Positions 8,119-40,960 of a stretch of DNA of 64,000 nucleotides are shown here, piece after piece. The stretch comes from Caldilineaceae bacterium (lineage in GTDB: Bacteria; Chloroflexota; Anaerolineae; Caldilineales; Caldilineaceae): NCBI GenBank assembly GCA_026645575.1, contig JAPKMW010000035.1:1-64000 (forward strand). The letters are read 5' to 3'. The position numbers and the translations under genes were made by a program. Numbering within the stretch: position 1 is the first letter of the stretch; each line of letters begins with the position of its first letter. Below the pieces are notes generated by a model, which worked only from the letters and a program-made list of their open reading frames with translations, had not been told where the DNA came from and searched no databases.

Positions 8119-8293
8119 TTCGTTTTCCTTGTTGCCTCGACTCTTGCAAAGCTGCGTCCATTGTACCAGAAGAATCTGTAAAACGCATAGTTTGTAAAGT
8201 GATAGGCAACGGCGGGCGTGAATTGCCTTTCCCGAAGGGTTGGCGCGGGTGTATCGCGCTATTGGGGCAACTGCCGAACGGCAAGCATTAGCG

Positions 8294-8442
8294 AACTGCG
8301 GTTAAAAGCGTCGCTGGATGAAAGAGCATTGCCCCTATGCCGTTTTGCATGAACCGATGCAGGTGCGTGGCACTGGTCAGGAGTAGATAGTCGATCCTGC
8401 CGCCGATTGACCAGTGCCGCGCACCTGTACCAGACCGCAGTT
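8294..8442. repeat. Palindromic element upstream of the Wzz-like gene
   Basis: Inner arms of 20 bases (8360-8379 and 8408-8427) pair with one G-T wobble around CAGGTGCG and its inverse, with a 28-base loop. Outer arms AACTGCGGT and ACCGCAGTT (8294-8302, 8434-8442) frame the whole. The right arm overlaps the stop codon of the toroid gene. The stretch 8119-8293 otherwise holds only the putative -10 of the Wzz-like gene. Confidence 0.7.
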
Positions 8443-9307
8443 ACACGGCTAAACATCCATTGGCTTGTAGCCGCCGCAAGGTAGAGAGCGTTATCCAACC
8501 CCGCCATTCCACTTCACAACCGGGGCTAAGGGGGGGCCAAGGGATCGTCCACCCACCATCGGCTTGCTGTTCGGCCAGCATCACGTCGAGATGGGCTTGG
8601 ATCTGCTCTTCCCGAAAATAGTTGCGCAACGGGTGGTCTGGCGTCGGCGCCCAGTCGAGTGGTTTGCGCACATAGCCAGTCGCCTGCGCATCCGCCATAA
8701 GACCAGCGGCACGCATGGCGCCCACCAACCGGTCGAGTTCTTGGGTGGCCCGTCGGCGATCCGGTGCATGGTAGAGAAAGGTCAAGACGGCGCCAATTTC
8801 GTGCATTTCGGTTGCTTGCATGTCAGTAATCTTGGCCCAGCAATAGGCCGTAGCCGGCGCCAGCCATTCATGGTGCACCCCATGCTTATGCAACAACCCA
8901 GCAATCGCCGCCGTCGGGTTGAGCGAGGCCGGCGGATTCACCTCCGTTTGCCACCAGGGCGCGCGCGGGTAGCGCAGGGCAGAGGGCAACAGCCACGGCA
9001 CACCGCCTTCCGCCGTTGTAATGGTCAGCAGATAATCACAAATGCGTTGCACCACGGCGGTTTCCCAGCCGATCTCGTCGAGAAATTCCAGAGCATGTTG
9101 GGTCGGCACGGGTTGACTATCGGGGCAACGAATATCCGGCTCCAACGCGTTGCCAAAGCCGCCATCGGCATTTTGATAGGCTATCAGGGCCGCCAACACA
9201 TCCGCACGTGATCCGCCCTTAAAATGATAGGCGAAGAGTTGTCGCTCCAACAGGCGTGCATTCTGCCAAAGAAATTGTTCGGCGCGGGCCAAAACAGTAT
9301 CACTCAT
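8441..9307 (-). CDS. Alpha/alpha-toroid protein of prenyltransferase/terpene-cyclase fold, function unknown
   Basis: 288 residues with the repeated QW-like motif of the squalene-cyclase/prenyltransferase toroid: YQNADGGFGNALEPDIRC near residue 43 and EQQADGGWTIPWPPLSPG near residue 250. No DDXD or DXDD catalytic motif of classical cyclases was seen, so enzymatic activity is uncertain. There is no signal peptide. The start is well fixed by AGGAGG seven bases before the ATG. It lies downstream of the ABC importer genes on the same strand, with a 219-bp gap containing palindromes, so it may have its own promoter. I do not recognise a specific role. Confidence 0.75.
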   Translation of the reverse strand: MSDTVLARAEQFLWQNARLLERQLFAYHFKGGSRADVLAALIAYQNADGGFGNALEPDIRCPDSQPVPTQHALEFLDEIGWETAVVQRICDYLLTITTAEGGVPWLLPSALRYPRAPWWQTEVNPPASLNPTAAIAGLLHKHGVHHEWLAPATAYCWAKITDMQATEMHEIGAVLTFLYHAPDRRRATQELDRLVGAMRAAGLMADAQATGYVRKPLDWAPTPDHPLRNYFREEQIQAHLDVMLAEQQADGGWTIPWPPLSPGCEVEWRGWITLSTLRRLQANGCLAV

Positions 9308-14647: not shown

Positions 14648-14678
14648 TGATCTAACTCCAGACTAACCACATATCATA

Positions 14679-14721
14679 ATCAAAACATCCGAACAGATGC
14701 CTTCTGTTCGGATGTTTTGAT
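14679..14721. terminator. Bidirectional rho-independent terminator
   Basis: A 19-bp stem (ATCAAAACATCCGAACAGA with its inverse) and 5-base loop lies between the convergent carbamate kinase and giant-protein genes. The A-rich left edge and T-rich right edge provide a short U-run in each direction. Confidence 0.85.
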
Positions 14722-14740
14722 CAGCGAAACCCTGACATCT

Positions 14741-17700
14741 CTACTCCCGCACTGGACAACTATGGCGTTGGCAGTAGTTTACCCTATCAACTGGTCTATG
14801 TTGCTTAAAGCCAGTGCGTTGGATCAACGGCAGGTAGAGTGCCGGCCCTAAGGTCGGCGTTGGTGTTGGCGTCAGGGTTGGCACGTCCGTCAACGTTGAG
14901 ACAAAGAGCGCAAAGATGGTCAGGTGAGTAATCTGGACGATCAGCCGGTTGTTGACCGTATCCCGCTCGATAATCGTAATGCCGTCACTGCGCCATTGTC
15001 CTGTGGTTTCGTCTAAGTAGGCGAAGGTTAGCTTCAATTCCTCCAACCCCGCAACCTGCGAATCGGTATATTCCAGCGCCAGCGTGACCGGCTGTGCAAA
15101 CTGGAAGTGCGCCAGTGGGACATCACCCTGGTAGGCGACAAGATGGAAAGCGTGATTGACAAATTGCAAGCTGACCGGCGCTTCATTCACGGTCGGCGCC
15201 GCCGTAAAGCGCAGCGTCACCGGTTGTGTTACCGCGCCTATTGGCGCCGTCAGCACGACCCTTCCGCCCACGGTTAATTCGTACACAACCGTTGCCGACT
15301 GATCCGGCTGTACCAGAACCGCAACGCCATTATCTAACGCCGTCGGGCTAGGGGTGATGGTGGCTGTGGCAGTCGGTTCCAATACCGGCAGGGTTGCGGT
15401 CGCCGTCGCGGTGGCGAGCAGGAGCGCGGTTGGCGTTAGCATTGCCGTTGCTGTTTCGGTAAGCGGAGTCGCGCCGGTAGCCGTTGGCGTAGCGGTCTCC
15501 ATTGGCGTGAGTGTCTCCGTCGGCGTCAGTGTATTTGCCCCGGTCGGGCTAGCGGTCACGGTGGCCGTTGGCGTCTCGATTGGCGTGGGTGTGTCTGTCA
15601 CAACGGGCACAGTCGGCACAGTTGGTACAGTTGGCACAGTTGGTACGCCGGTTACAGTTGGCGTCAGGCTTGGTGTCATCGTGACGGTCGCCATGGTGGT
15701 GGCAGTTGGTGTTATCGTAGCACTTGGCGTTGACGTTGGCGTCTCTGTTGGCAAAGCCGTATGGGTTGCTATTAGTGTAGGCGTTGCCGTTGCCGCATTG
15801 GTTGGCGTCGGTAGAAGCGTGTTGGTGGGTAACAACGGATTTGTCGGCGTTGTCGTGGCTGTCGCGCTGGGCAGCATCGTATTGGTTGGCAGCGGTGTCG
15901 CCGTATTGCTTGCCGTAGAGGTGACCGTTGCCGTATCGGTTGGCGTTGCTGTCGGCGGCTCTGTGTTGGTCGCGGTAAGCGTGGTCGTCGGCGTATTCCG
16001 CGGCGGCAGGGTCGCTGTGACCGATGGGGTTGGCGTTACCACTACCGTTGGTGTAGGCGTCGCGATCAACGTTGTTGTGGTCGTCGGCGTATCCGTTGCT
16101 ATGGGCGTCAAGGTTGCTGTGCTAGTCGGCGTCACAACCATCGTCCCCGTTGCCGTGGACGTATGGGTTGCCAGCGGTGTTGTCAAGGTCGTTGCCGTGG
16201 CTGTTGCCATTGGCGTATGGGTTGCCGTGACCGTCGCTGTTGCCATAGTCGTGGGCGTCGGCGTCACGGCATTTGTTGGTGTTGATGTGCCAGTATCAAC
16301 CACTGGCGCGGTTGGTGTTACCGTTGGTGTGTCGGCAGCGGTGGCTGTTGCCGTCGCACCAGGTATGGTTGTACTGGTTATTGTGACCGTCGCCGATGGC
16401 GTGGCCGTTGTGGCTGCTGTGGCCGTTGCTGTCATCGTTGGCGCCCCCCCAGTGGTCGGTGTTGGCGTGGCGGTGGCCATGGCGGTTGGTGTATCACCTG
16501 GCGTTTGGGTATCGGTGGCGGTTGGCGTTACCGTTACTGTCGGCGTAGCAACCACGGTTGTGGTCGGCGTAGCTGTTTGGCCGGCCAGCGGGGTGTCAGT
16601 CGGCGTTAGCGTTGCTGTTGCGGTCGGCGTGGCGCCCGGCAGCGGGGTATTGGTCATGGTCGGCGTGGATGTGTCACCCGGTAAAACGGTAGCAGTCACT
16701 GTCGGTGTATCATTCGCCACCGGCGTGTTGGTTGGCGTCGGGGTGCTGGTGGCGGTTGCGACGGCGACCGCCACGCTGGTGTGCGTCGGCGTTGCCGTGG
16801 CAGGTGCAACCGGCGTCTCGGTGCTAGTTGCTGTCGCCGTGGGCGTTGGCGTGGGGGTGCTGGTCGGCGTAACACTGGTCGTTGCTGTCGGTGTTAGCGT
16901 TGCTGTCGGTGTGGGCGTCGGCGTTTCATGGCTACAGCCATAACTGCGATAGAGGCGGGTGATCCCCTGCCAGTTGTTATTCACCAAGCCCCGGCCACTG
17001 AGCAGCAGATCGGGCGCGCCATCTTGATCAAAATCGCCCCACGTGGCAGCGCCCGACGCTATTCCCGGCAGCCCCAAGGACAGGAGTTGGAAGGTGGGGA
17101 CGCCGTTGACGCTACCAGCAGTGCGGTAGAGATTGGCCAGCGGATTGGCGCCTGTGCCGCCGCTGGTGAAGGCATCTAGATCGCCGTCGCTGTCATAGTC
17201 CACCCAGGCCACTGAACCACTACTGGCGCCGGCCAGACTGGCGCTTTGACTGAAGTTGCCATCGCCCCCGTTCCGATAAAGCAAGGTCACAGCCTGACCA
17301 GCCCCATTGCTGCCATTGACCAGCAGATCGAGGAAGCCATCGCCATCATAGTCGCCCCAGGCCAGCGCGCTGCCATGCAACCCCGGCAACCCGGCGTTGG
17401 CGGCGACAAAGGCGCCATTGCCCGTGTTGCGATAGAGAACCGTGAGGTAGTTCACCGGGCCGGCGACGCCGGTGAGCGCCAGATCCAACAGACCATCGTT
17501 GTCATAGTCGCCCCAGGCCAGGTCGCCGTCGGTGACAGCCGGGAAGGGCGTGTCAACCGCGGTAAAGCGGGGTTGGCCGTCGCTACTGTCGTCGTTACGG
17601 TAGAGACGCAGTACCGTGGCGGAAGAAATCTCCGGGTCGCGACTGTAACCGGTGAGCAGTAGATCGAGATCGCCATCGTTGTCATAGTCAGCCCAGGCCA

Positions 17701-20700
17701 CGGCGCTTGCCGAGACATTCACCAAGGCGGCGTTGGCGTCGGTAAAGTTGCCACCCTCGTTGCGGTAGAGCCGCGTTGCCGGCGCCGAACTGCCCGTGTC
17801 GCCGGTGAGCAACAGATCGGGGTCGCCGTCGCCGTCATAGTCGCCCCAGGCGGCAGCGCCGCTATGCACTTGCACCAGCGTGACACTGTTGTTTTCCTGG
17901 AAACTCCCAGCCTGGCTGGTATAAAGCCGGGTCAAGGCTTGCCCGTTGTCCTGTCCACTCAACAAGAGATCAAGGTCGCCATCCAGGTCATAGTCGGCCC
18001 AGGCCAGCACGCTCCCTTGTAGCGGGGGAAAACTGACCGGCTGCTCCGGCAACGTGGGGTCACAGCCCGCCACGCGGTTGCCAACGGTAAAGCGCAGTTG
18101 GTAGGGGGCCAGCGCGCCGTAACCAGGACTACGCAAGGTGCGATTCAAGCTGACTGCCACCTGTTCCCCCCAGCGGAAGGGGTGGGTGGGGGTAAAGAGC
18201 AAGGTGCGTTCAAAGCGGTCATAGCCGATGGTCCCGGTGTAGAGACCGCCCAGCGCGCCATAGACTTGCACCGTGCGGCTGGTGACTGTGGCGCTGTCAA
18301 TGGGATAGCTTATGGTAAAGGCCAGCGTGCTGGTCGGCGCGACGCCCACCGCCTGGGCCGCCGGCTGGTGTTGCGCCACGGTCAAGAGATTGAGAACGCT
18401 AAAGCTTTCCGTCAGCCGACTGGCCGCTGTGACGCTGAGATTCCCCGCCGCCAACAGCGCCGTCTTGGTATAAAGCCCCGTGTTAACCGGCGCCGTCCAG
18501 GTCAGGGTGATCGGCTCCTGTGCGCCCACCGGCAGCGTTGGATAGGTCGCCTGCACCTGGTTGTCGATCACCTGACAGGAACCGGCGGCGGTTGTCTGAC
18601 AGGTGAGGTCAAAGCTCGCCAGTGGCAACTGATCGGTGATCACCACGCTCTGCGCCGGTTGCGGCCCGCGGTTTTGCACCAGCAGGCGATATTGAACCGG
18701 GTCGCCGGCCAGCATAGAACCGCCCTGGCTAGCGGTGGTGAGCGCCACCGCCGCGCAACCAGCGTTGCGGTAAAGATTTGTGATGGCGGTCCAGGAGTTG
18801 TTGACCAGCGCCGTCCCCGTTACAATCAGGTCTAAGGCGCCGTCGCCGTCATAGTCGCCCCAAGCGCTGCCGCCGCGTTCCGAGCCGCCCAGATCCAGCG
18901 CCAGACGGGTAAAGCCTGGCGTCGCCCCGCCAACCCCGTCATTACGATAGAGAACCGTTTGCTTATACAGATAGCGGTCGGCGCTTAACGCCAGATCGAG
19001 ATCGCCATCGTTGTCATAGTCGCCCCAGGCCACGCTGCCTTGATCGCTGGCCGCCAACGTCGCGCTGGGGCTAAAGAGACCATTGCCCTCATTGCGGTAG
19101 AGATAGGTCGCCGAGTTGAGCTGATCCAGTGCGCCATTGAGCGCCAGGTCGAGATCGCCGTCGTTGTCATAGTCACCCCAGGCCGCCGCGCTCAACGAGA
19201 GGGCGGCAAAGGGGGTGTTGACAATGGTGAGGATCGGGTTGTCGTTGACCACACCATCATTTCGATACAGCCGAGTCAGGCCGGCGCCCCCAGTCAGGAG
19301 CAAATCAAGGTCACCATCATTATCATAGTCGCCCCAGGCGAGATCGCCGTTGGTGGCGCTGGGCAGCGGTTGCGGCCTCAGGACAAAGAGCGGGACACCG
19401 TCGGGCGTGCTGTCATTGCGGTAGAGACGGGTGGTGTCGCCGCCCACGCCAGGATCGTAGGAGTGGCCGCTGAGGACCAGATCGAGATCGCCATCGTTGT
19501 CATAGTCGCCCCACGCCACAGCGCTGTTGGCGACATTGGTGAGACCAGCGTTGGTGTTGCTAAAGGTGTGATCACCGTTATTACGGTAAAGCCCCGTGAA
19601 GCCCACACCACCGCCACTGTCGCCAGTGAGCAGCAGATCGAGATCGCCGTCATTGTCATAGTCAGCCCAGGCGGCGTCGCCAGCGCTCAGGCCGGGGAAA
19701 GCAACGGCGCTGTTCGGTTGGAAAGTGCCGCCCTCATTGTCAAAGAGTTGCGTCATTCGCTGGCCGTTGTTGTTGCCCATCGTCAACAGATCGAGATCAC
19801 CATCGCCGTCATAGTCGCCCCAGATGGCCGTACTGTCGCTAAGACCAGGGAAGGGCGCGGTAACAGCGTTAAAGCCAACCGCACAACGGGCGGCCTGCGG
19901 TCTACCCACGGTAAATTGCCACTGGATTGGCGCCAGCGGATCATTGGTGACGCTGCGCACCGCGTCTGTCGCGCTGACCCGCACCACCTCGCCCTGTTGG
20001 AAGGGGCGATCTGGGGTAAAGGTCAGCCGTCGCAGCGCGCCGCTATAGGTAAACGCTCCGCTGTGGTGACCGCTCAGATCGCCGTGGACGGCAAAGGTGC
20101 GACTGGTCACGCTGCTGCTCTCCAGTTCATAGGGGAAAGCCACGACAATGGCGGCATTGGTCGCCACATTCTGGGCCTGGGCCAACGGTGCCACCAGGCT
20201 CAGGGACATGGCGCGCACCACCTGACTCCGGCTTTCGGCGCTGTTGTTGGCGGGCGTCAGATCATCCGCCTGCTGCACGGCGGCCAACGCCACCAGATCG
20301 CCAGTCCAGTTGGGTGCGGTCAAGCCCAGCGTGATCTGCGTCGTTGCGCCCACGTCCAGCCACGGGTAGCGCACTGTCACCTGTTCCCCATCTAGACGGC
20401 AGTCGCCATCCAACGCAACCTGACAGCGTTCGCCGCGCGTATCAGTCGGCAGCGTCACATAGAGTTCCACATCGGTGGCGGGATGTGGGCCATGATTGGT
20501 CAGCGCCACCGTGTAAGTCAGCGGGCTATTGGCAAGCGCTGGATTGATCGTCGGCCACAAGCCTACGGCCAGATCGCTGACTGGCTGGACGGTGGTCGGG
20601 AAAGGCCCACTTTCGTTGTTAAATGGCTCGCGCTCATTGGTTGCCGTCGCTACCGCCGTTATGCTGATGACGCCGGGCATGGCAGGCGCCATCAGGGTCA

Positions 20701-32700: not shown

Positions 32701-35700
32701 CCACCCGCCAGGCGCCATCCGCCGCGACATCGGCTGTCGCTGATCCCAGACCAAGGGGGGCGCCGGTGGCGTCGGTTAAGGTAACTTGGAGTTGATCGAC
32801 GCCGCTGCCCGGTTGACCGGAGCGCAGATTGGGATCGACGACCGTGCCGGCCAGGGGCACCAACCATTGCTGATAGGTGGTGATACTCTGGGTGGCGGCG
32901 ATCAAGGCGCCGTTGGCAAGGTTGAGGGTAATGTTGGGCGACGTGGCGTCAACAAAAGTTTCAACCAGCGGCGACAGCGCGCTATAGCCCACCAAGTCGG
33001 TGACGCGGCTCTGCAAAGTGTAGCGCCCTTCGCCCGTTGGCGTAAAGGTGGGGCAATAGGCGGTAGCGCCCTCGGCATCTTGACAGCGGGGCGCCGGGGC
33101 GGCCACGCCGTTGACCAGCAATTCGACGCGATAGAGACCGGAGGTTGCATCGTCGGCATAAAGATCCAGAATGGTGCGCTGATTGGGGCGATAGGCCGTG
33201 GTGGAGCGAATGGTTGTCGTGGGCGCGTCACTATCGATGGTCAGGGCGAAACGGCTACGCTCCTCGACCCAACCGGATTGAAGATGGTAGAGATCGGCGA
33301 TCTCCAGCGGACTGAGCGCCTTGCGATAGATCGCCACCTCATCCAGATGGCCGCGGAAAAAGTTGGTGGGCGTACCGGCAGGCATTTCGGCGCCGATGGT
33401 CAGCGGGCGCGCCTCATTGGTTGGCTGTGGCTGCCAGCCATACGCTTGCGCCACCGGCTGCCCGTTGACAAAGAGCCGCGCCAGATAACCGTCATAGGTG
33501 GCGGCGACGTGGCTCCAACTGTTGGTGGGCAGCTTTTGTAGGGCCGTCAGTTCATAGCCGGTGGGTGCAGTAGCCGGGCCGCCGCGCCAGAACTGTAACT
33601 TGCCATCGGCCAGGCCAAACCAGTAGCCGGCGAGACCGGCAGCGGTGGCGTTGTTATCAGTCTTGCCCACAATGGTTCCCCAGCCCGAATCCAACTGCGG
33701 CTTGACCCAGGCGCTTATGGCAAAGGGTTCAGCGCCGCTAAAGGCCAGTTGGTTGGCGGTGGCAGCCTGGATGTAGGTAGTGCCGGTGAAATAGGCGGCT
33801 TGGCTGACCTGCCCTTTCTCGCCGGCGCGCGGACAGGCGGTGCAAGTGGGGCTATAAACGCCGGCACGATCCGTAAAGCTGGTGGCGCCGTTATCTTCAT
33901 CCAGGGTAACCCAGAGCGCCGGCGCCGAGGTACGGTAGAGTTCCTGTACTCTGTCGGTGCTCAAGGCAGTGCGATAGAGAATGAGTTCATCGAGGTCGCC
34001 GCTAAAACCCTGGCCCACCACCAAGGGGCGATCGGCAGCACGCTGGATACCGCCAGGCAAGCTGGTATCGGCGGCCACTTCGACGCCATTGACAAAGAGC
34101 TTTATCTGCTGGAAGCCGGGAACCGTGCTAATGGCGGCGGCCAGATGGGTCCACTGGTTGGGATTAGGAATGGCATTGTTCGGGATCGCGAGGGTACGCG
34201 TCACAACCTGACTTTGGCTGTCACGGAGCGAGAGCGTTAACCCGCTGGTGGTCAAGCGCAAGTGGCCGCCCCCTTGTGCCAGGTTGTTCCGTTCCAAGAG
34301 TGCGCCGCTGCCCTTGACCCAGGCGGCAATGGTCATCTGATCTTGGGCGGCTGTCCCCACCACAAAGGGCAAGGTGAGCGCCTGCCCGCCGCTAAAGCGC
34401 ACCGCGTTGCCCGCACGCCCCGGTACAGACGCGATGGGACAAAGGCTCCCGCTACAGCGGATCAGGCTGCCCGGCAGGGTGGCGTTGGCAAAATCAATGC
34501 TGCCCGGCGGCTCTTCCAGGCGCAACCGTAGCAGTTGATCCCATTCGCCGCTGGCCAGCCGCTGGATCTGGCTCCCATTCAAGACCAGCGGGAAGAGTTG
34601 CAACTCATCCAGGTCAATGGCGCTGAGACCAAGGGTCACATCGGCGGTGGTATTGGGGGGCAGTTGACCGCTGAACTGTTGTGTTCGACCAACTTCGCCG
34701 CCATTGCTATAGAGGATCAAGGTCTGACCATCGTAGGTGACGCTGACGTGGTTCCAGCGACCGGGGGCAAGCACACCGGGTGCGGTCTCGTAGCCAGTGG
34801 ATAGCCCCGCAAAGGTGGCGCGTAAGCGCCCGGTGGCGGGATCGTAGGCCAGGTTAGGCAGACGGTGATTGCCGCCGGGATTGTTGCTGTTATCTTGAAA
34901 GAAGCTCTGCCAACCACTGACCGTTGCCGTCGGCTTGAGCCAAAGGGCAAAGGTATAGCGGCCACTGCTGAGGTTCGGTAGGGCAACCGTGATCCCCAAA
35001 AGCGTGTCGGTGCGCAGACCAACGCCCCAAGGCGATGGCATGGGGGTGGGGCAGAAGAGGAAGAGCGTACAACTGCCTATGCTTTGACCGGTGACGCGAT
35101 TGAGATATTGGGGGATGGGATTCCACCAGGAGGTTGTCTCGTCAAAGGGTAGATCGACGACGGGTGTGGGCAGCCCACCTTGTAAACCCTGGCCGGCGAC
35201 AGCAACCGCTTCATTCGCCGTCAGGGCGCGATTAAAGAGCTTGACTTCATCCAGGTAGCCCCTGGTCAGGTTGTAGGCTTTATCCGAAACGTAACGCCGT
35301 TGGCCGCCCACGGTGAGGAGCCAGCCGGTGCGGGGCAACACGGCGTTAACGCTCGCTTGGGGAGTGCCATTGATATAGAGGGTGGCGCGACCGTTGGCCT
35401 CAATGCTCACCAGTAGATGCAGCCATTGTTCCGCCGCAAAGAGACCGGAATAGCTGTAGTTCGCCCCGCTATAGAGCGTGAAGTTTTGATGCGACGCGTG
35501 ATAACTGACACTCACCGATTCACCCCAGTTGGCCGGGTTGTGGGCGGCCAACTGAAAGCTGCCGGTTGTGTTGGGTCGGAGATAGAACCAGCCGCCGATG
35601 CTAAAGCCACTGCTGGTGGCTTTGACCAAGGCGCCGCTGAGATCCAGCGCGTCGTCAACGCCATCCAGGCTGACGCCACGACCGACTTTGCCGCCATCAA

Positions 35701-38700
35701 TCACTGTGGGGCATTGGGTGCCTTGACACTGGGCCGGCGTCGCCGGGGTGACGGCGCCGGCGTCGATCCAGGGATCGGCATAGTCAAACGAAAGATGGGT
35801 CATGGGCAACTGGGCGCCCTGGTCGGCGTAGGCGGCCAGGGGGTTGGCGACATAGCCCTGCGCCGCCTGACTCACGCGGTAGACACCGGAAGCGAGGCCC
35901 GCGCTGACGGTGATCGGCTGACTGCGGGCGATTTGGGCGTTGGGCGGCAGGAAAAAGGCGTCCGGGTTAGCGGGAGTGGTCAAGCCGCTATCGGCCTGGG
36001 TGGTCAACTGGCCGTAGATCACCCGATTGGTCAAGGCGTTGCTGACGTTGGCGTCATAGAAGAGCCGCTGGCCGGGGCGGGCATAGCCGGCAGTCGCCAG
36101 ATCAGCGGGCAAGGCCGGGTTGCGCAAGACGGCGCTGTAGTTCATGACTACACCGGACGAGGCCACCTGCGGGTGCCAACCCATGCGCCGCTCCTGGCTG
36201 TCGAGAAAGCCATCGCCGTCGGCGTCGGCAACGGTGGGATCGGAACGCACCCAGGTGCGCAGCGGCGTGGCGCCGGCATAGCCATAGACCAGCTCCCAGC
36301 CGGTCACCTCCTGCTGATCGGTCAAGCCATCATAGTCGGTATCGGCGCGGTTCACGTCGGTGCCCAGTCGTAGCTCCTGGGCATCGGTTAAGCCGTCGGC
36401 GTCGATGTCCTGCGCCGTGGGCGATGTGCCTTGCTCGTGTTCAAAGAGATCGCTCAGGCCGTCACCATCGGTGTCCCAGCGCAGGTCGTCGGGGTCGGAG
36501 CCGCCGGCGGCGCGATTGCGTAGACCGTCGCCGTCAGCATCGCGCAGGGTGGGGAAACGGAAGCGTTCCCGGTCGGCGACAGGACGGTTCGCCCAGAAAT
36601 CGTTGGCCCACTCGATGGCATAGAAGCCATTGCCCTGGTCAACCCGGCGGTAGAAGCCATCCAGGGTTGCCGGCAACACGTCAAAAATGGTATAGTCAGA
36701 GAGATTCATGTGATTCGAGCCACGCAACTCTTCGTCATCACAATCCAGGCCAAACCAACCACATTCTTCATAAAGCACCAGCACCCCTTCATTCAAATAG
36801 AGGGGATAAGGCACGTTGATACCGGGTTGGCTAAAGGTGAGGTCGCGGGTCGGGGAGAGCGCCGGCGCATGAAGACGCCCTGTATTGGCCTGGTAGCGCC
36901 ACTGGGAACGCATGGCGCCGGCGCGCAGCCCCCGGTGCAGATCCCGTTCATTGTCATCCAGGCTGTAGGCAAAGACCGAATCCCACATACCATCATCAAA
37001 ACCGCCATCGGGGCGAATGGCATTGTGGAGGGTCAGGCCAAAGCGCAGTGCATTCCCCGCGACCATGCCCTGCGCCGGGTTGGTCAATCCCACGTTGACA
37101 TTGTCGATCTTGAGGCGATCCTGATCAGCCAGGTCAACATAGGCATCAGTGCTGACAAAAAGGCCGGCCAACCACTGGGTAACGCCGCCGCAAAGCAGCC
37201 CGCTCGCGCCGATGGCGTCACAGATGAGCGTGGCAAAGGCGTCAAAGAGCAGCAACCCCACGGCAACGATCGCGCTGACCAATGGCCCCCCCATCAGCCC
37301 GACCAGGTAAAGAGCAACGCTCACCAGGGTGGTGGCAAGAGCCTGCCCCAACAGCGCCGGGTTATTCCAGTTGCCGGTCGTTATTGCCACCGCCAGATAG
37401 GCGCCCCAAGCTACGGTCAGGGCAAATATCTGGCCAGAGCTAAAGGCTTTAACACTACTTGTAAAAACTTTGAGATCGGCGATGGCTGCACGCATTTTGG
37501 TCAGATTCCAAATGCCCTTGTTCAGATAATTGGCCCGCTGGTAGAACATGCCCAACCGTACGGCAAAAGTTGTCCCCAGCGCCGCCGTGATACCGCTGGC
37601 AATGCTGCGCGAGATACGCTGGTCGCTGCCGGTATAGTGAACGGCGATGGTGGCGCCAATGACGACGGCGGCGCCAAAGCCGGCCGCACCGTAGCCTTTG
37701 ATCCCAGGCAGTACTATTTTGGGGAACTTATTTAACTGCCATAATGCCTTAAGTTCCTTCTTGTACGTTTTATAGTAGTGATCAATGGTTAAGGCAATTG
37801 ACATGATAAACGAAGTAGAATGGGGGTGGGTAGGCGCGCCAAACCCCGGCAGCGCATTGGGCAGGTTATTGATAGCCGCCAGGCCGCCAAAGCCCTGTTG
37901 CAACCCCAGGTAGAAGCCCAAGGCGACCTGTTTTCGCTCCTGCGCCTGCTGTTGGCTGGCAGCCGTAGTATCCGGTGGGACAAAGTAAGCCTCGCCGGCC
38001 AGCGCCGGTGTCAGCACGTTGTTCAAATAGTCGCTGATCGCATAGTTGCCCCAAGCGCCGTTCTGATAGCGATAGGGCGCCCAGTTGACCGTGGCCAAGG
38101 TTTTGGTTGGTGTGCTGCTGGTGAAGGTGAGCGTGGCCTGGCTGCCGGCAATGGTCGCCTCGGCCAGATTGCTGCTGCGTGAGCGCTTTTCCTGGGCAAA
38201 GAGCAAGGTCGGGCTGAGGGTGGTGGGAAAGGCGTTGAGGATGGTGCGCACCTCGCTCATCAACACATGGGCATATTCGTCGGCATGGTTGTATTGGAAG
38301 CGGCTAACCGCTGTGGCGCCCACGGGGACCTGCCAGCGGTCGGCATCGCTGGCGGTGGAGGCGCTATCCCAGCGGCGCGCGATCTCAGCCACGGTTAGGT
38401 CGCGTTGCCCATCATTGTTGCTGTCACCGCCCACGGCAAAGGTGTTGGCCAGACCATCCCCCAAGCGCCAGAGGTTGCCATCAACGCTACGGTTGCGGTC
38501 GCCCTGCACCACGGCCACCTCCAGCCCCAGTTGCTCCTCCACCGCCAGGCCGGTCAGGTACCAGTTGTCATCATAGGCATGGATCACCGTGGCCTGGTCG
38601 CGGCGGTTGGCGGGGTTATTGCAAAACGCTTCGCCTTCCTGGGCCGGGTCAACACAAACATCGGTGAGCATCTGCACCACCCAGAGCAGCCGCAGCTCTT

Positions 38701-40960
38701 GCGCGGCGCCCCAACTGCCGGTGCTGGGCCAGTAGAGCAAATGGCTGCTAAAGGCGACCCGCCCGCCGCCACTCTGGTCGGGCTGCATATAGACCGGCGC
38801 CAACACTTCCAGCGTATTTTCGTCGTAAATGCGCACGCTCATGTTATAGGCTTTGAGCGTGTCGGTCTGGATGGCGCGCACCCAGTCGGTGATGGGGGTG
38901 GAGGCAGTGATGATTGGTGCGTTGGCTTTGACCGGCAGATTGCCATAGCTACCCGCCTGTTTGGGAATGCGGATCGAGAGCATGGGGGCCAGCCGTACAT
39001 CGCCGTTGTCGGCCTGGGGATCGTCGGTGCGCAGATCGGGGTTGGCGGTATTCTTGAAGGTGGTGTTGAGCCGGCGCTGAATCTGTCCGCGTGTGTCGCC
39101 GCTGGGCCAGTCGAGAACATTCAGGGCGTAGGTCAGGTGGGCCGGATCGGTGGGACGCAGTTGCACATCGATGTAAGCCGGTTTGTTAGCCGCCAGCCCG
39201 TTGACCGCTAGTTTGAAAGGGTTGTCGCCATGAAAGGCTTGCGCGGCACTGCCCAGGGCGTGATCGGGCGAGAGATCAACGCCATCAGGAACCAGGTCGT
39301 TATCATTGTCCTCGTCAAAGAGATTGGGCAAGCTGTCGCCATCGGTGTTGCCACAGGCCGGACGAACCGTGTCGGTAATCAGGGTGCTGCGTTCGGGGCA
39401 ATCCATGCCGTCGGTGAGGCCATCGCCATTGGTGTCCGGGTTGCGCGGATCGCTGTACTGTCCGCCCATGCCGGCGCCAGTCACTTCGACAAAATCACTC
39501 AACAGGTCTTTGTCACTGTCCGCTTCGGTGGGGTCGGTGCCGAGGGCTAATACTTCCTGGCCGTCGGTGAGACCATCGTCATCGCTGTCACTGTCGGTCG
39601 GGCTGCTGCCATAGTCGGCTTCGGCGCTGTCACTCAGGCCGTCGCCGTCGCTGTCGAGGCTGGGGGCGGCGGCGCTCTGCTGGGCCGGGGCATTGTCGAC
39701 GACCGGCTGGGGAAGCGGTTGTGGCCTGCTGACCGCACTTTCTACTTGTGTAGTCTGGTCCGCCGACGCTTCTTTGTCGAGCGCACTGGTAAATTCAACC
39801 TCAGCCACGCTTGCCTGTTGGTCGGGGAGCGGTTGGCTACGTTCGGCCATGCGGTCAGCAAAGGCTTGCACCCGCTGCGTTTGCAGCAGCGGCGTCACCA
39901 CCATCGTTAGAATCACGGTCGCCACCACGCTGCCATGCACCCACGGCGCCTGGCGATAGCGCACAAGCAAAAGCGCCAACAGACTAAAGCCGAGCAACAA
40001 GGCGCTCATCACCCCTAGATCGCGCCAGCCTTGGGCATGGGTCGGCAGGCCAACCCAAGTTGCGCTGCGGATCAGCCAGTGCGTCGGGGCGGTCAACTGG
40101 CTGCGGTCAAAGCCGGCAAAGTCGGTTTTCAGGGTAACGCTCGTCTCATCCTGGTTGCCGGTGGCGGGCATGGTCATGCGCACCACCAGCCGGCGCGGCA
40201 GCCCATCGCTGTCGATCCAGACCTCGCCCCGCCCCATCATCGCCGCATAGGCTTCGTTCACGTTCAGTTGCACCCCCGGCGGCAATTCCCCCCGCCGCCG
40301 TAGCCCCTCTGCCAACGCGGCGCGCATCTGCTCGGCAAAAACAGGCGCATCGAGGTCGAAGGTGAAGTGCTGATACTGAGGGTTGGAGACTGGAGACTGG
40401 AGAGTAGAGACTGGAGACTGGAAACTGGAAACTAGGGACTCTGGACTACGGACTGCGGACGCTGGACGCTGGACTGGGCTGACGTTTTTGATGGCGCGTA
40501 AAAAGGCCAGGGGATCGCGCTGGGTGGCGGCAAAGTCGTTGTAGTCGGGGGCGGGTTGCCAGTCGCCGCCGGGTTGACGGGTGAAGGCGCGCTGTTGGTC
40601 AATGCGCACTTCGATGGCTTGGGCCGGGTCGAGGACGGAGCCGTCGCCCTGCCAGAGGGTTAAGTGCGCTTGTTGGTTGGGCAGGTCGCTCTTGCCTTCC
40701 AGGTAGAGCGTCGCTTGGCTGGGGCCGCGACCGACGTTGCGCAGGCTGGGCGTGGGGTTGGTGCTCTGGTCAATGGTGCTGGTAAAGCGGTAGACACCGA
40801 GTTGTTGGGTAAGCGTCCAGGCGTTTTGTAACGCAGCGGCGGGCGTGCCAGCGCTTTGCCCAGCGGCTGGGGCGGCCCACACGATGAGGCGCCCCCCTAC
40901 GACCAAAACCAACAGCGCTACCAACCACCAAAGCCGGGGGAGACGGGAAAGACGCACCAT
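14741..40960 (-). CDS. Giant multidomain surface protein (~8,740 residues): LolA-like, TSP3, LamG, beta-helix, DUF11, Big_5 and VCBS propellers
   Basis: Probable extracellular adhesin or sheath protein. The ATG at 40960 has AAAGGA seven bases upstream; the frame also allows GTG 48 bases earlier. Approximate domain order by residue: signal anchor 12-32; LolA/LppX-like 31-304; two membrane helices 315-360; TSP3 calcium repeats (DSDGDGLSD) 434-571; unassigned domain; hydrophobic cluster 1074-1257; second TSP3 array 1467-1590; six LamG domains with Ig-like spacers 1704-3280; beta-helix of POMP type (GGALYSNG repeats) 3467-3987. Then follow a DUF11 and five Big_5/seven-bladed-propeller units with interleaved DUF11 domains up to 8006, a Thr/Pro stalk 8011-8544, a beta domain 8548-8684, and a PT linker with YLPLI. 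No enzymatic motif was seen. The uninterrupted 26-kb frame argues that it is expressed. Confidence 0.93.
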   Translation of the reverse strand: MVRLSRLPRLWWLVALLVLVVGGRLIVWAAPAAGQSAGTPAAALQNAWTLTQQLGVYRFTSTIDQSTNPTPSLRNVGRGPSQATLYLEGKSDLPNQQAHLTLWQGDGSVLDPAQAIEVRIDQQRAFTRQPGGDWQPAPDYNDFAATQRDPLAFLRAIKNVSPVQRPASAVRSPESLVSSFQSPVSTLQSPVSNPQYQHFTFDLDAPVFAEQMRAALAEGLRRRGELPPGVQLNVNEAYAAMMGRGEVWIDSDGLPRRLVVRMTMPATGNQDETSVTLKTDFAGFDRSQLTAPTHWLIRSATWVGLPTHAQGWRDLGVMSALLLGFSLLALLLVRYRQAPWVHGSVVATVILTMVVTPLLQTQRVQAFADRMAERSQPLPDQQASVAEVEFTSALDKEASADQTTQVESAVSRPQPLPQPVVDNAPAQQSAAAPSLDSDGDGLSDSAEADYGSSPTDSDSDDDGLTDGQEVLALGTDPTEADSDKDLLSDFVEVTGAGMGGQYSDPRNPDTNGDGLTDGMDCPERSTLITDTVRPACGNTDGDSLPNLFDEDNDNDLVPDGVDLSPDHALGSAAQAFHGDNPFKLAVNGLAANKPAYIDVQLRPTDPAHLTYALNVLDWPSGDTRGQIQRRLNTTFKNTANPDLRTDDPQADNGDVRLAPMLSIRIPKQAGSYGNLPVKANAPIITASTPITDWVRAIQTDTLKAYNMSVRIYDENTLEVLAPVYMQPDQSGGGRVAFSSHLLYWPSTGSWGAAQELRLLWVVQMLTDVCVDPAQEGEAFCNNPANRRDQATVIHAYDDNWYLTGLAVEEQLGLEVAVVQGDRNRSVDGNLWRLGDGLANTFAVGGDSNNDGQRDLTVAEIARRWDSASTASDADRWQVPVGATAVSRFQYNHADEYAHVLMSEVRTILNAFPTTLSPTLLFAQEKRSRSSNLAEATIAGSQATLTFTSSTPTKTLATVNWAPYRYQNGAWGNYAISDYLNNVLTPALAGEAYFVPPDTTAASQQQAQERKQVALGFYLGLQQGFGGLAAINNLPNALPGFGAPTHPHSTSFIMSIALTIDHYYKTYKKELKALWQLNKFPKIVLPGIKGYGAAGFGAAVVIGATIAVHYTGSDQRISRSIASGITAALGTTFAVRLGMFYQRANYLNKGIWNLTKMRAAIADLKVFTSSVKAFSSGQIFALTVAWGAYLAVAITTGNWNNPALLGQALATTLVSVALYLVGLMGGPLVSAIVAVGLLLFDAFATLICDAIGASGLLCGGVTQWLAGLFVSTDAYVDLADQDRLKIDNVNVGLTNPAQGMVAGNALRFGLTLHNAIRPDGGFDDGMWDSVFAYSLDDNERDLHRGLRAGAMRSQWRYQANTGRLHAPALSPTRDLTFSQPGINVPYPLYLNEGVLVLYEECGWFGLDCDDEELRGSNHMNLSDYTIFDVLPATLDGFYRRVDQGNGFYAIEWANDFWANRPVADRERFRFPTLRDADGDGLRNRAAGGSDPDDLRWDTDGDGLSDLFEHEQGTSPTAQDIDADGLTDAQELRLGTDVNRADTDYDGLTDQQEVTGWELVYGYAGATPLRTWVRSDPTVADADGDGFLDSQERRMGWHPQVASSGVVMNYSAVLRNPALPADLATAGYARPGQRLFYDANVSNALTNRVIYGQLTTQADSGLTTPANPDAFFLPPNAQIARSQPITVSAGLASGVYRVSQAAQGYVANPLAAYADQGAQLPMTHLSFDYADPWIDAGAVTPATPAQCQGTQCPTVIDGGKVGRGVSLDGVDDALDLSGALVKATSSGFSIGGWFYLRPNTTGSFQLAAHNPANWGESVSVSYHASHQNFTLYSGANYSYSGLFAAEQWLHLLVSIEANGRATLYINGTPQASVNAVLPRTGWLLTVGGQRRYVSDKAYNLTRGYLDEVKLFNRALTANEAVAVAGQGLQGGLPTPVVDLPFDETTSWWNPIPQYLNRVTGQSIGSCTLFLFCPTPMPSPWGVGLRTDTLLGITVALPNLSSGRYTFALWLKPTATVSGWQSFFQDNSNNPGGNHRLPNLAYDPATGRLRATFAGLSTGYETAPGVLAPGRWNHVSVTYDGQTLILYSNGGEVGRTQQFSGQLPPNTTADVTLGLSAIDLDELQLFPLVLNGSQIQRLASGEWDQLLRLRLEEPPGSIDFANATLPGSLIRCSGSLCPIASVPGRAGNAVRFSGGQALTLPFVVGTAAQDQMTIAAWVKGSGALLERNNLAQGGGHLRLTTSGLTLSLRDSQSQVVTRTLAIPNNAIPNPNQWTHLAAAISTVPGFQQIKLFVNGVEVAADTSLPGGIQRAADRPLVVGQGFSGDLDELILYRTALSTDRVQELYRTSAPALWVTLDEDNGATSFTDRAGVYSPTCTACPRAGEKGQVSQAAYFTGTTYIQAATANQLAFSGAEPFAISAWVKPQLDSGWGTIVGKTDNNATAAGLAGYWFGLADGKLQFWRGGPATAPTGYELTALQKLPTNSWSHVAATYDGYLARLFVNGQPVAQAYGWQPQPTNEARPLTIGAEMPAGTPTNFFRGHLDEVAIYRKALSPLEIADLYHLQSGWVEERSRFALTIDSDAPTTTIRSTTAYRPNQRTILDLYADDATSGLYRVELLVNGVAAPAPRCQDAEGATAYCPTFTPTGEGRYTLQSRVTDLVGYSALSPLVETFVDATSPNITLNLANGALIAATQSITTYQQWLVPLAGTVVDPNLRSGQPGSGVDQLQVTLTDATGAPLGLGSATADVAADGAWRVDYPVSSRLTGIYTVTMSTADRVGNRRTLQRTLRIDNQPPQVSFTSPTTNTISAPLTFSGVSSDTLAASFGSTVTLSAAAAGVSQLQIAYLPSAPGSTSVNETPPAGLVLYGGLNGLYAVNGAPLTQTTDLSTNGWSITCSTSACPTVAADGFSLNALRFDGVDDGLRVANIGGAFASGALSLSAWVRPAAGVGARDATLLALSSSDGSRYGLLRYQTGNNSFHYADSSNGAVTATGSYAADRWHFVLLTLTDNGQGVLYVDGAQVATFTTAWRPQAGDGLTIGHGWNGNAATDLLPGLLDEVSLYDRALTAAEAAQLLHAAQPFLHLDFEEEWLVNNSPLADRSGWQQTATLSSDQATNKAVTGIVGSQALRLDGVNDWVAITPHPALALRRGQFSQAIWLYPQGGVSGEQLVIGAPITVTAAERYPSLWVSDGNKIRYGFGNGSQWRSGVTPAILTPNAWNLIVATFDGAFYRIYRNGQLVHSDSSFVAHVPYPTSQVRIGEQSGGFQGQIDELRLYGHALAAEEVRGLYLQGWQTVTTGNSQPRVTWSATTPIGVEGLFAIETRAIDALGNVSSRQVVWRGLIDTLAPRVKVESLTPYRARAIDFSLKEEKFVTGCGYEAISTRGGYDSPWYLALSNATLADTRPLYELTASCPTALANRPLNACDTFGRCADTSVQNRCYATSDGVAVYSSVGAKAIRDAVAAAAPGSTIKIAGVCAEATTEAGTQQLVRLTKPLTLAGGYASTNWSVANPATQPTTLDAWGLGRVISASVPFTLTDLTIQGGMTAGDGGALYAGAAVTLQRVNLRNNRAGNRGGALFSAGPVQSSANQWQNNQASGAGGALYSNGTVYITANQFQGNQATGAGGALHLAGDGWLTANRFENNSSTSNGGALAVSGRLVMSGTQLLNNQAQGNGGAAQIGTATMTNVQFQGNQSAQQGGALAVTGTLTLTTGSFINNWATLDGGAANLRATADLSGVQFQGNQSSQSGGALAMTGTLTLSDSIFTNNRATGNGGAVAAQGLLVGQNVQLLNNQAQQGGALYATDGVQIERSKFLGNGAAQTGSAFYQAGTTGASSQIVNSLFARNAVTNSLGAQIYLTGTTDLALLYSTVANPVRSPNRAVQIERGNLGITNTILANHAVGLVVTGTATGYQNYNLFDDNGVNISGTVAGGSHSLVNTPAFLDPWNDDYRLNATSYALNLAHDVGVVDDLLGALRPQGNGLDIGAYDSPLAALANLAVSQWQSNDRIVAGEPITYQITVLNRGPLVAQNVRITQTLPVSLTPRLPLQSSDPVSVTAAYLTAERTLLFPGAAITWTLVADSDLATFDVTSRVVATATNEGDPTNNAAQGAATVLRFMDRQVQAPLPMSQNIPPTATLALTVGYDLNSTTVNSQTVAVQSSLSGQRAGQWGYDAIARRLTFTPTQPFAWGDEVAVSAGIGVRSISNDPLLPLQWRFTIGGATGGCTPTFTNRNIGLPGLNNAALDWGDMDGDGDLDLVLLGQSNGQAVTRLYANMAGSFQLRTNAGLPGVYSGAVAWGDYDNDGDLDLLLSGRQGDTQGLTRIYRNEGAGLVWRDSNAGLTNVFGGAVAWGDYDNDGDLDLVTTGYSYDLGATFIATRIYRNDAATPTSARTFRLVGTLTGLVGGDLAWGDYDNDGALDLALTGSDKGTPTTTIYHNAGNDAFRAIDQPIDTARFTALAAGLTGVYNSALAWGDVDNDGDLDLLVNGYLGSNPHTTQIYRNNGDQSFTPVAALPRLADGSVGWGDYDNDGDLDFFSMGSAGAGGQTMLYRNDGVTGGLPTLQLTNLGLPGVSRGEGAWGDYDNDGALDFVMSGYQSGAQAVTYLYRNSGCAEVGLTMQNMPTLGAPGAPLTYTLALYNRGPQIAANVRVTDTLPTGVTNVTCRSSALTSCTISNGLVRATYVTLAPNRGVTLTIGLQAPLHTALLTNRAQVSADNDSSPTNNLVESNTPLNAADVLVRQAVTPTLVATGGVLTYTVTLQNLGASPAQNLQVTNTLPSGVTILGCQADGAGSCQSAGSVVTTTYGALAGQSTATVTVQVVAPDLLGSLSNEARLAATNDVNPTNDRVTTLATVQTAADVGLAVVNALAWLPAAAPMTYTLAVSNSGPQIAHNVQIVTSLPPTMTATACQVMAPATCTINGRQTTATYSTLGVGATQTVTLRVQAPTTPGLITTNVALSAANDTTGANNSRVMTTTVLPSADLALTVAAKPSLVLAGAPLTYTLRLTNQGPQPASQSVLTATLPASATGVLCTANQGGACLVDGQQVTVTYATLPASTVTTVTLVMTTPVATNVFTLTATATHADDYNQSNNQATIAPQVFLVLPINIVQPLPQSRNIAPTTTLQIGFNYDLDLGTVTTRTLVVQSSQQGQSWGPVSYDSLTRQLTLTPTQPFAWGDVVRVTASAGLRSIHNDPIAPQQWQFTVGQVSATSCTIGFSDSNAGLPGLTWSDVAWGDHDKDGDLDLVMAGVEGSTRVTYLYDNVNDQLQQNSTTTFPGIERGAVAWADYDNDGDLDLLLSGQADSGPLTQLYRNDGGGSFQALNAGLTNATNSAAAWGDYDNDGDLDLVISGISSSAPTTTLYRNNGDSTFTAISTALAAVSDGALAWGDLDNDGDLDLALAGGYGLTLTTALYRNDGVSAGQPQFTQLSNSMTGLAASDLAWGDMDNDGDLDLLVNGATYSPSTRYTQIYRNDGDGSFALATSLTGVAYGAVGWGDLDNDGDLDLFSAGSNNAVRLYRNDGMSGNLPVFSLLNLSLPLLDNGDGAWGDFNNDGALDLLVSGYSNGSTITRVYQNHGCASLALTPQPLPAALAAAERLTHTLALVNHGPQPATSVTVKVTLPGSVTAVGCQGSNSGLCSVADQVVTTTYSQLAVQQQEALTLTFTTPAVTGVYTYSASVTTTLNHQGTPNTLSRAFTVSNLITVTAVTPAHQTLTVPPTTTVAITLNHDLDLTTVNSRTVTIQSTLGGRYLGQFAYDAAQRQLRFTPDRPFLWGDTVQAVVTGGLAGVGVGAPAPRQWQFTIGGVTGGCTPSLTDSGVRLPALDQGDAAWGDYDRDGDLDLLLLGRDSSFQYHTYLYANQGDAFHLQPVTGLADIGYGAADWGDYDQDGDADLLLVGETSSSKIARIYRNDGPAATGEWIFTDLNAGLPGINNSDGLWGDFDNDGDLDLALSGSSDSGFLTRIYRQDRSPTDSRTFTLLNTTLTAVSYGALAWGDYDNDGDLDLVVAGMRTFSPRQYLTTLYRNEGVGSNGLWRFTDIGAALPGLSDGGVAWGDYDNDGDLDLALNGELASNTSPLPKRAYIYRNQNGLFSEAARLMDTYGGMVAWGDYDNDGDLDLLNVGYRSNASNTGYLYRNDSAGATTLFQLATSGQPGFSNGVAAWADYDGDHALDLLVAGDSAGSHSLLYRHRGCADLAATVTARPNPAQPAAGLTYTVTIHNTGPQTAYNVQAVDTLPGDVSAVSCQAATPATCQVVSGKPTLTLAMLAANATTMMTITVNTPTRLGTLTNQLHLSADNERNSANNGITTVTLLNTADLAVSAQVTPTWLTAGEPLTYTVALTNLGLGAAQEVQVVHTLGGDATGLQCAVSAGALCQQAGRVITATFGALAGLATGQMTLTLPAPDHLGVFTATTRVSAANDLNPNNNTVATVTTIRTEAEAALATFAAPTWAAVNAPLTYTVVITNSGPHLARQVRVTTTLPPTVTLTGCQADGGLCQINGGQATTLYTMLGVTAPATITLNAFTPNTLGVITATTTVTAANDNDAFNNTASISTTLRAADLTVSLQVTPTQAATDDLLAYRLQVENLGTLAADGVRLVTTLPTAVTGVVCTAPGATTCSVDGGVITTTYTTLAPLATTSVTLTLAAPDQLGALNAAAQIDAANDNNAANNQATTNVTVTTAADLSLIDLSGPAAVRINTPVAYHLTVFNDGPQLARQVAVTMTLPSTVTVGGCQVAAGASCQVTGGQAVARYAALAVRVAEPITLTLMAPAMPGVISITAVATATNEREPFNNESGPFPTTVQPVSDLAVGLWPTINPALANSPLTYTVALTNHGPHPATDVELYVTLPTDTRGERCQVALDGDCRLDGEQVTVRYPWLDVGATTQITLGLTAPNWTGDLVALAAVQQADDLTPANNSAESRSQVVRAMSLSLVAPLAQAQNVATNAAIVVAFPYELESSSVTSRTFAVHGDLSGHHSGAFTYSGALRRLTFTPDRPFQQGEVVRVSATDAVRSVTNDPLAPIQWQFTVGRPQAARCAVGFNAVTAPFPGLSDSTAIWGDYDGDGDLDLLTMGNNNGQRMTQLFDNEGGTFQPNSAVAFPGLSAGDAAWADYDNDGDLDLLLTGDSGGGVGFTGLYRNNGDHTFSNTNAGLTNVANSAVAWGDYDNDGDLDLVLSGHSYDPGVGGDTTRLYRNDSTPDGVPLFVLRPQPLPSATNGDLAWGDYDNDGDLDLLLTGGAGLTRLYRNDGVVNDNPILTIVNTPFAALSLSAAAWGDYDNDGDLDLALNGALDQLNSATYLYRNEGNGLFSPSATLAASDQGSVAWGDYDNDGDLDLALSADRYLYKQTVLYRNDGVGGATPGFTRLALDLGGSERGGSAWGDYDGDGALDLIVTGTALVNNSWTAITNLYRNAGCAAVALTTASQGGSMLAGDPVQYRLLVQNRGPQPAQSVVITDQLPLASFDLTCQTTAAGSCQVIDNQVQATYPTLPVGAQEPITLTWTAPVNTGLYTKTALLAAGNLSVTAASRLTESFSVLNLLTVAQHQPAAQAVGVAPTSTLAFTISYPIDSATVTSRTVQVYGALGGLYTGTIGYDRFERTLLFTPTHPFRWGEQVAVSLNRTLRSPGYGALAPYQLRFTVGNRVAGCDPTLPEQPVSFPPLQGSVLAWADYDLDGDLDLLLSGQDNGQALTRLYTSQAGSFQENNSVTLVQVHSGAAAWGDYDGDGDPDLLLTGDTGSSAPATRLYRNEGGNFTDANAALVNVSASAVAWADYDNDGDLDLLLTGYSRDPEISSATVLRLYRNDDSSDGQPRFTAVDTPFPAVTDGDLAWGDYDNDGLLDLALTGVAGPVNYLTVLYRNTGNGAFVAANAGLPGLHGSALAWGDYDGDGFLDLLVNGSNGAGQAVTLLYRNGGDGNFSQSASLAGASSGSVAWVDYDSDGDLDAFTSGGTGANPLANLYRTAGSVNGVPTFQLLSLGLPGIASGAATWGDFDQDGAPDLLLSGRGLVNNNWQGITRLYRSYGCSHETPTPTPTATLTPTATTSVTPTSTPTPTPTATATSTETPVAPATATPTHTSVAVAVATATSTPTPTNTPVANDTPTVTATVLPGDTSTPTMTNTPLPGATPTATATLTPTDTPLAGQTATPTTTVVATPTVTVTPTATDTQTPGDTPTAMATATPTPTTGGAPTMTATATAATTATPSATVTITSTTIPGATATATAADTPTVTPTAPVVDTGTSTPTNAVTPTPTTMATATVTATHTPMATATATTLTTPLATHTSTATGTMVVTPTSTATLTPIATDTPTTTTTLIATPTPTVVVTPTPSVTATLPPRNTPTTTLTATNTEPPTATPTDTATVTSTASNTATPLPTNTMLPSATATTTPTNPLLPTNTLLPTPTNAATATPTLIATHTALPTETPTSTPSATITPTATTMATVTMTPSLTPTVTGVPTVPTVPTVPTVPVVTDTPTPIETPTATVTASPTGANTLTPTETLTPMETATPTATGATPLTETATAMLTPTALLLATATATATLPVLEPTATATITPSPTALDNGVAVLVQPDQSATVVYELTVGGRVVLTAPIGAVTQPVTLRFTAAPTVNEAPVSLQFVNHAFHLVAYQGDVPLAHFQFAQPVTLALEYTDSQVAGLEELKLTFAYLDETTGQWRSDGITIIERDTVNNRLIVQITHLTIFALFVSTLTDVPTLTPTPTPTLGPALYLPLIQRTGFKQHRPVDRVNYCQRHSCPVRE
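15330..16930 (-). repeat. Thr/Pro/Ala-rich low-complexity stalk within the giant gene
   Basis: About 530 residues made almost only of T, P, A, V and S in short periods such as TPTPTATATST, coded by degenerate ACN/CCN repeats. It separates the last propeller from the C-terminal beta domain. By analogy with surface proteins elsewhere it should be an extended, possibly O-glycosylated spacer that carries the ectodomain beyond the envelope. The opposite strand reads open as a Val/Gly-rich frame, a by-product of the repeat. Confidence 0.9.
16945..28600 (-). repeat. Fivefold super-repeat: Big_5, seven-bladed VCBS propeller, DUF11
   Basis: Within the giant gene, propellers occupy about 27150-28300, 24260-25345, 22420-23555, 18750-19875 and 16945-18060. 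Each has exactly seven blades marked by a calcium loop of type WGDYDNDGDLDLL, 35 in all. Each is preceded by a ~100-residue SbsA/Big_5-like Ig domain (text such as LTFTPTQPFAWGD). DUF11 domains (LTYTVxLxNxGP) number 4, 1, 6, 1 and 0 after the successive propellers. Blade 7 is always the odd one, with DGALDLL-type text and a closing GC. This shows that whole units, not single blades, were duplicated. Confidence 0.9.
40384..40477 (-). repeat. GGAGACT minisatellite read in frame inside the giant gene
   Basis: A 94-bp run of about thirteen imperfect 7-8 base units (GGAGACT, GGAAACT, GGACGCT and similar on the plus strand) encodes a Ser/Pro/Gln-rich insert (SSFQSPVSTLQSPVSNPQ) in the LolA-like region. 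It looks like an intergenic-type simple repeat that entered the gene without breaking the frame. Confidence 0.8.

Follow-up and report, generated by a model that had tools for sequence, protein, structure and literature searches.

Which kind of protein is encoded by a single gene that fills 26 kb of a bacterial genome, and what might the cell use it for? In the first 64,000 nucleotides of contig JAPKMW010000035.1 from a Caldilineaceae bacterium (phylum Chloroflexota, assembly GCA_026645575.1; hereafter the window), an uninterrupted minus-strand frame extends from position 40960 to 14741 (26.2 kb) and encodes 8,739 residues followed by one stop codon; its ATG start is preceded by a ribosome-binding-like site (AAAGGA). 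The giant, unbroken frame of about 8,740 residues described in a previous sequence-only reading is thus exact and contains no internal stop. By comparison, the longest open frames in 30 simulated 64-kb sequences of the same dinucleotide make-up reached a mean of 291 and a maximum of 414 codons. The G+C content at third codon positions (GC3) of the giant gene is 0.73-0.74 in the regions of the head, the LamG domains, the beta-helix and the cassettes, and, taken in blocks of 500 codons as far as residue 8000, ranges from 0.68 to 0.76; it is lower distally (0.61 in the stalk and 0.64 at the C-terminus). According to its modules, the product is probably a Ca2+-stabilised, membrane-tethered, adhesin-like surface protein; in the Chloroflexota family to which it belongs, the base would be fixed and the reach would differ between lineages.

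The base starts with a conserved head (residues 1-1620), which runs from a signal helix through a LolA/LprG-like domain and a transmembrane (TM) hairpin to a first set of TSP3 repeats; a domain of 400 residues, a hydrophobic bundle and a beta domain follow, and then further TSP3 repeats (coordinates of all protein features refer to the minus strand). In the family-average hydropathy profile over the 31 rows of alignment A1, the signal or first TM helix (residues 7-34; 40859..40942) appears as a peak in 97% of the rows, and the TM hairpin (residues 313-361; 39878..40024) as two peaks (97% and 94%) that are separated by a positively charged loop (average net charge +3.1). The intervening domain (residues 36-288; 40097..40855) belongs to the LolA/LprG-like fold class, a half-barrel with helices. 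Six TSP3 matches were obtained with the iterated hidden Markov model (HMM) between residues 436 and 1603, in a first block (residues 436-565; 39266..39655; Pfam TSP3_bac) and a second one (residues 1470-1603; 36152..36553). The conserved core domain between them (residues 580-975; 38036..39223; row 1 of alignment A2) was predicted mostly at a local distance difference score (pLDDT) of 85-97 per block, with few blocks at 69-81; taken from the large model, it gave no confident fold match. The core domains of loci L004 and L007 carry an insertion of ~100 residues in place of a short loop in the other six aligned rows. Judged by family-average hydropathy and loop charges, the hydrophobic bundle (residues 1089-1252; 37205..37696) would comprise four TM helices; it is followed by a beta domain that is Ig-like at best (residues 1280-1441; 36638..37123). 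The LolA-like, core and post-bundle domains had no matches to Pfam or NCBIfam families. The main hydropathy peaks and the loop charges are consistent with a location of both protein ends outside the membrane.

Pfam and NCBIfam identified the modules (TSP3, Laminin_G_3, PMP-type beta-helix, DUF11, FG-GAP_3, Big_5), and iterated HMMs built from the copies in the window gave their order. Downstream of the head, six LamG domains (Laminin_G_3; residues 1786-3280; 31121..35605; Pfam and iterated HMM) are followed by a PMP-type beta-helix (residues 3542-3965; 29066..30337; Chlam_PMP, POMP_repeat and sub-threshold choice_anch_Q). Five cassettes, each consisting of one Big_5 domain and seven FG-GAP blades, then alternate with 13 DUF11 domains in groups of 1, 4, 1, 6 and 1 (iterated HMM): one DUF11 (residues 3998-4110; 28631..28969) and cassette 1 (residues 4118-4587; 27200..28609); four DUF11 (residues 4612-5092; 25685..27127) and cassette 2 (residues 5102-5552; 24305..25657); one DUF11 (residues 5576-5690; 23891..24235) and cassette 3 (residues 5698-6166; 22463..23869); six DUF11 (residues 6189-6915; 20216..22396) and cassette 4 (residues 6924-7382; 18815..20191); one DUF11 (residues 7412-7524; 18389..18727) and cassette 5 (residues 7532-7989; 16994..18367). 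Each of the five blocks contains seven strong FG-GAP matches (34-68 bits; 35 in total, besides an extra weak one of 4.8 bits) and would by this count form a seven-bladed propeller. A Thr/Pro-rich stalk (residues ~8015-8540, 40% Thr and 16% Pro; 15341..16918) precedes an unassigned end region with the motif YLPLIQR near the C-terminus. The protein contains 40 Ca2+-type D-x-D-x-(D/N)-G motifs and 62 cysteines, many of them as regularly spaced pairs within LamG and DUF11 domains. The LolA-like, TSP3, LamG, beta-helix, DUF11 and Big_5 modules and the stalk of the sequence-only reading could all be located (by Pfam/NCBIfam, iterated HMMs or fold class); its proposal of a single giant surface protein is well supported by the signal helix, the conserved hydrophobic segments, the paired cysteines, the Ca2+-type repeats and the colinear relatives on independent contigs.

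The comparison with these relatives indicates how the protein is subdivided. P0114 (3,407 residues) aligns colinearly, at 40% identity, through its residues 32-3390 with residues 34-3426 of the window protein and then ends in YLPLVTRGQ; the window protein continues with the beta-helix, the 13 DUF11 domains, the five Big_5 and FG-GAP cassettes, the Thr/Pro stalk and YLPLIQR. P0001 (6,197 residues) is colinear with the window protein up to residue 4716 and has three cassettes. Because P0114 ends after the LamG array and P0001 has three cassettes rather than five, the head together with the LamG array looks like an invariable base, and the rest of the window protein, its distal three fifths, like a lineage addition with amplified cassettes. 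Within the window, the cassettes are 45-54% identical in pairwise protein comparison and thus closer to one another than to those of P0001 (36-44%); in the cassette tree, a single clade of the five window cassettes was neither rejected nor demonstrated (approximately unbiased test, p 0.54). Across the family, the tail extends from little past the LamG array to several thousand additional residues. A variation of domain counts among relatives, which the sequence-only reading had put forward as a check, was indeed found: in the relatives examined the tail modules vary strongly and the head is constant. Head-only proteins of ~1,760-1,860 residues were considered as minimal forms and discarded; several had tails that appeared out of frame or stopped within the TSP3 or LamG region.

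The window protein shares the colinear head of ~1,600 residues that defines the family. Among 201 fetched proteins with a length of 3,000 residues or more, 156 contain the head core. The LamG array directly follows the head (six domains in the window protein, between 2 and 8 in those head-bearing relatives that were examined). The best database heads are 47% (P0113) and 44% (P0001) identical to the window protein; P0228, a 994-residue piece, is 50% identical to window residues 473-1455. A scan of named genomes yielded at least 46 loci; among those listed, the match of 39 is confined to short or TSP3-type stretches, and the head is borne by seven (L001-L007): Herpetosiphon giganteus DSM 589 (frame of 4,401 residues, the sole core match in that genome), an uncultured Chloroflexus (3,820 residues), four other Chloroflexota/Anaerolineae bins and one Halieaceae-labelled bin, which may be misbinned. 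Few candidates were scored per genome in the core scans, so that the following match numbers are lower bounds: the core alignment matched 20 of the 400 genomes sampled from the phylum, 17 of which have the match in a frame of 3,000 residues or more; for the Herpetosiphon class the count is 29 out of 158 genomes, and for the class to which the L006 genome belongs 61 out of 298. The source labels are mostly Chloroflexota, with single matches labelled Saprospiraceae, Halieaceae and Actinospongicola. Five genomes including H. giganteus have one match each (frames of 4,379-4,419 residues), eight others have frames of 3,826-3,864 residues, and some genomes possess multiple copies (e.g. four matches in G789). 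The longest related frame comprises 9,247 residues (G671). The order of genome G604 was chosen for the orthologue search on account of the window's D-2-hydroxyacid dehydrogenase, which is 61% identical to the copies in G604 and G598 (with a partial match in G576); of the 46 genomes in this order, 10 gave a match at E ≤ 1e-60, the top one by E-value at 39% identity, and neither these genomes nor the database heads included a close orthologue of the giant protein. Related frames of 7,383-9,247 residues are located on G671:C204, G754:C521 and G777:C12; the tail of the G671 relative lacks window-type FG-GAP cassettes. On contig C18 of G604 (L124-L125), a second giant of 4,670 residues lies immediately upstream of the one with the head and in the same orientation; it contains a beta-helix, LamG domains and seven FG-GAP matches, and no TSP3 head.

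From the module content, the signal helix, the paired cysteines and the calcium-type motifs, an outward, Ca2+-stabilised adhesive arm appears the most likely arrangement. The signal helix, the TM hairpin and the four-helix bundle would anchor the head at the membrane's outer face, and the LprG-like and the conserved 400-residue domain would lie outside. TSP3 repeats, the six lectin-like LamG domains, the beta-helix, the DUF11 spacers and the five Ca2+-type propellers would form a long arm directed away from the cell that might bind glycans or proteins, either of neighbouring cells or of a matrix. Lineages would retain the base, and new or amplified cassettes in the tail would change the reach. 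Of the three functions named in the sequence-only reading (adhesin, sheath, gliding factor), the first is best supported, as judged by module content. Several observations weigh against such an assignment. LamG, FG-GAP and DUF11 modules are found in enzymes and structural proteins as well, and the head matches no known adhesin family in Pfam or NCBIfam, so that the constant part may have another task. Regarding topology, a weaker hydrophobic peak at residues 1118-1131 (65% of the 31 rows) would, if membrane-crossing, reverse the orientation, and residues 1060-1085, assigned to the outside, are slightly positive (+0.8). Two tail stretches (residues 6752-6770 and 8672-8691) exceed the hydropathy mark of 1.6, and a C-terminal membrane contact is therefore possible. 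Finally, no neighbour gene keeps a constant position beside the giant gene across genera (ten stretches compared). Giant proteins of bacteria have mostly been encountered singly; with one conserved, putatively membrane-anchored head and a widely varying tail, the present family offers a way to study how the reach of a surface protein is determined. The relative in the culture-collection strain H. giganteus DSM 589 renders roles in attachment, filament cohesion and gliding testable, in a group whose gliding machinery is, to our knowledge, not known.

Instead of binding foreign surfaces, the arms could hold the cells of a filament together or coat them on the outside, i.e. act as a structural sheath or cell-junction protein. 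This is rather unlikely in our estimation: the relatives in the filamentous genera Herpetosiphon and Chloroflexus and the near-constant length within apparent genera (the groups of five and eight genomes mentioned above) speak for it, while the patchy occurrence in the Herpetosiphon class, the several copies in G789 and other genomes and the presence of lectin-type modules speak against it. A smaller chance is given to the idea that the head is a new type of surface-display base, in which the LprG-like domain, the new 400-residue domain and the bundle would extract or sense envelope lipid and be coupled to an adhesive arm that lengthens by cassette duplication. A motor-driven surface adhesin might also be considered by analogy with SprB, the gliding adhesin of Flavobacteriia that is moved by a motor. 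Chloroflexus aggregans and Herpetosiphon aurantiacus are named as gliders in a review (PMC13104615), and relatives of the giant protein occur in both genera. The TSP3 region moreover matches the myxococcal CglD, far below the cutoff (46.6 of 400 bits). Gliding nevertheless seems improbable, as synteny around the giant gene is not conserved in the ten stretches and no motor or secretion gene was recognised among the 20 of the window's 34 other frames that were run against Pfam (such genes could lie elsewhere). Equally improbable is a lipid-handling machine, in which the LprG-like domain and the bundle would move lipid or lipoglycan outward and the tail would serve as tether or sensor. A Pfam match to the LprG/LppX carriers was found neither in the window (E ≤ 0.001) nor among the 25 listed of 27 families for 30 members of alignment A4 (E ≤ 0.1). 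That several genes were fused into the giant frame by an assembly artefact is very improbable, for although the cassettes are repeats, they are too divergent at 45-54% protein identity for easy collapse, GC3 is steady along the gene, and the independent P0001 has the same module order up to window residue 4716.

YLPLIQR (residues 8709-8715; 14816..14836) is followed by 24 residues without a hydrophobic stretch and hence differs from an LPXTG sortase anchor; RTX nonapeptide repeats of type I adhesins were not detected in the window either (no HemolysinCabind match at E ≤ 0.001). A hydrophobic-LP-hydrophobic motif is present in the last 25 residues of 54 of the 156 core-bearing giants, with a TM-like stretch in 12 and neither feature in 90 of the remaining ones (some records are partial); among all 201 C-termini it occurs 64 times, versus 33 times in 4,020 random internal 25-mers. 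At DNA level, the pattern (Y/F)-L-P-h-h-x-(K/R/N/S/H/Q)-stop was found 82 times in any reading frame of eight Chloroflexota genomes (G001, G114, G196, G234, G583, G604, G624, G671), five of these matches ending in TGG as allowed by the pattern, versus 35 times for the reversed pattern; a permuted form gave 14 versus 39 for its own reversal. The excess differs by genome (G671 25/4, G234 14/6) and is missing in Herpetosiphon (9/10). This C-terminal motif, with a basic or polar residue before the stop, may represent a sorting or anchoring signal.

In the genomic surroundings, compared as all frames of ten stretches including the window against each other, a search for conserved neighbours was unsuccessful: few families (two-component proteins included) are common across genera, none of them at a constant place. 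Two-component genes adjoin the giant gene in Herpetosiphon and G583, but their response regulators are of different classes (LuxR-type versus OmpR-type), and the link was therefore dropped. Glycosyltransferases lie upstream only in two Chloroflexus-like loci (L005 and G234). The giant gene is convergent with an amino-acid-kinase gene on the opposite strand; directly 3' of its stop codon, a terminator-like hairpin of 21 pairs (14677..14723, minus strand; minimum free energy −33.7 kcal/mol, z −7.7) has an A-rich and a T-rich side and could therefore serve both strands, while a consensus terminator scan gave no result at this site. Neither tRNA genes nor Rfam matches at gathering score were present in the window. 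The G+C content of the giant gene (0.62) is above that of 13 of 14 measured neighbours (range 0.51-0.64), and its GC3 is 0.73 compared with 0.55-0.73 in these genes. Within the LolA-like coding sequence, ~7 copies of the heptanucleotide TGGAGAC form an array (40384-40433); gain or loss of one unit would shift the frame.

Compared with known systems, the first domain shares its fold class with the mycobacterial lipid carriers LprG/LprF/LppX and with LolA/LolB/RseB; LprG-type carriers are free lipoproteins, whereas the giant's version would be the first domain of a membrane-anchored protein and lacks a Pfam sequence match. Integrin-alpha FG-GAP propellers have seven blades per unit and D-x-D-x-D/N-G loops as do the window cassettes; the window protein, in contrast, has five separate propeller units per chain, each preceded by Big_5, and reaches Integrin_A_Ig_3 only below the cutoff (20-21 of 23.6 bits). 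Bacterial surfaces are already known to bear giant repeat proteins (PMC11573180 and PMC12863079). Giant1-5 of Apilactobacillus kunkeei, extracellular proteins of 3,000-8,000 residues with a signal peptide and a long repeat region, resemble the window protein in size class, signal peptide, long repeats and surface or secreted location; unlike it, all five carry a C-terminal DUF5776, and in Giant1-3 the repeats are alpha-helical and the N-domain is a beta-solenoid (available text of PMC12863079). The term LamG does not occur in that text, compared with six such domains here. Giant genes have also been described in Omnitrophota and further predators (West-Roberts et al. 2023, as cited in PMC12057145). 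They are likewise very long, encode TM helices and have been proposed as surface weapons; they carry carbohydrate-degrading domains, of which none exceeds the Pfam cutoff in the window protein (only 3keto-disac_hyd at 22.3 bits versus 26.8, inside the LamG region). A published description of the giant-head family was not found in the literature covered, which left out most subscription papers and bioRxiv preprints. What appears to be new is a large, unnamed Chloroflexota family, characterised by a conserved head with three domains outside the families of Pfam and NCBIfam.
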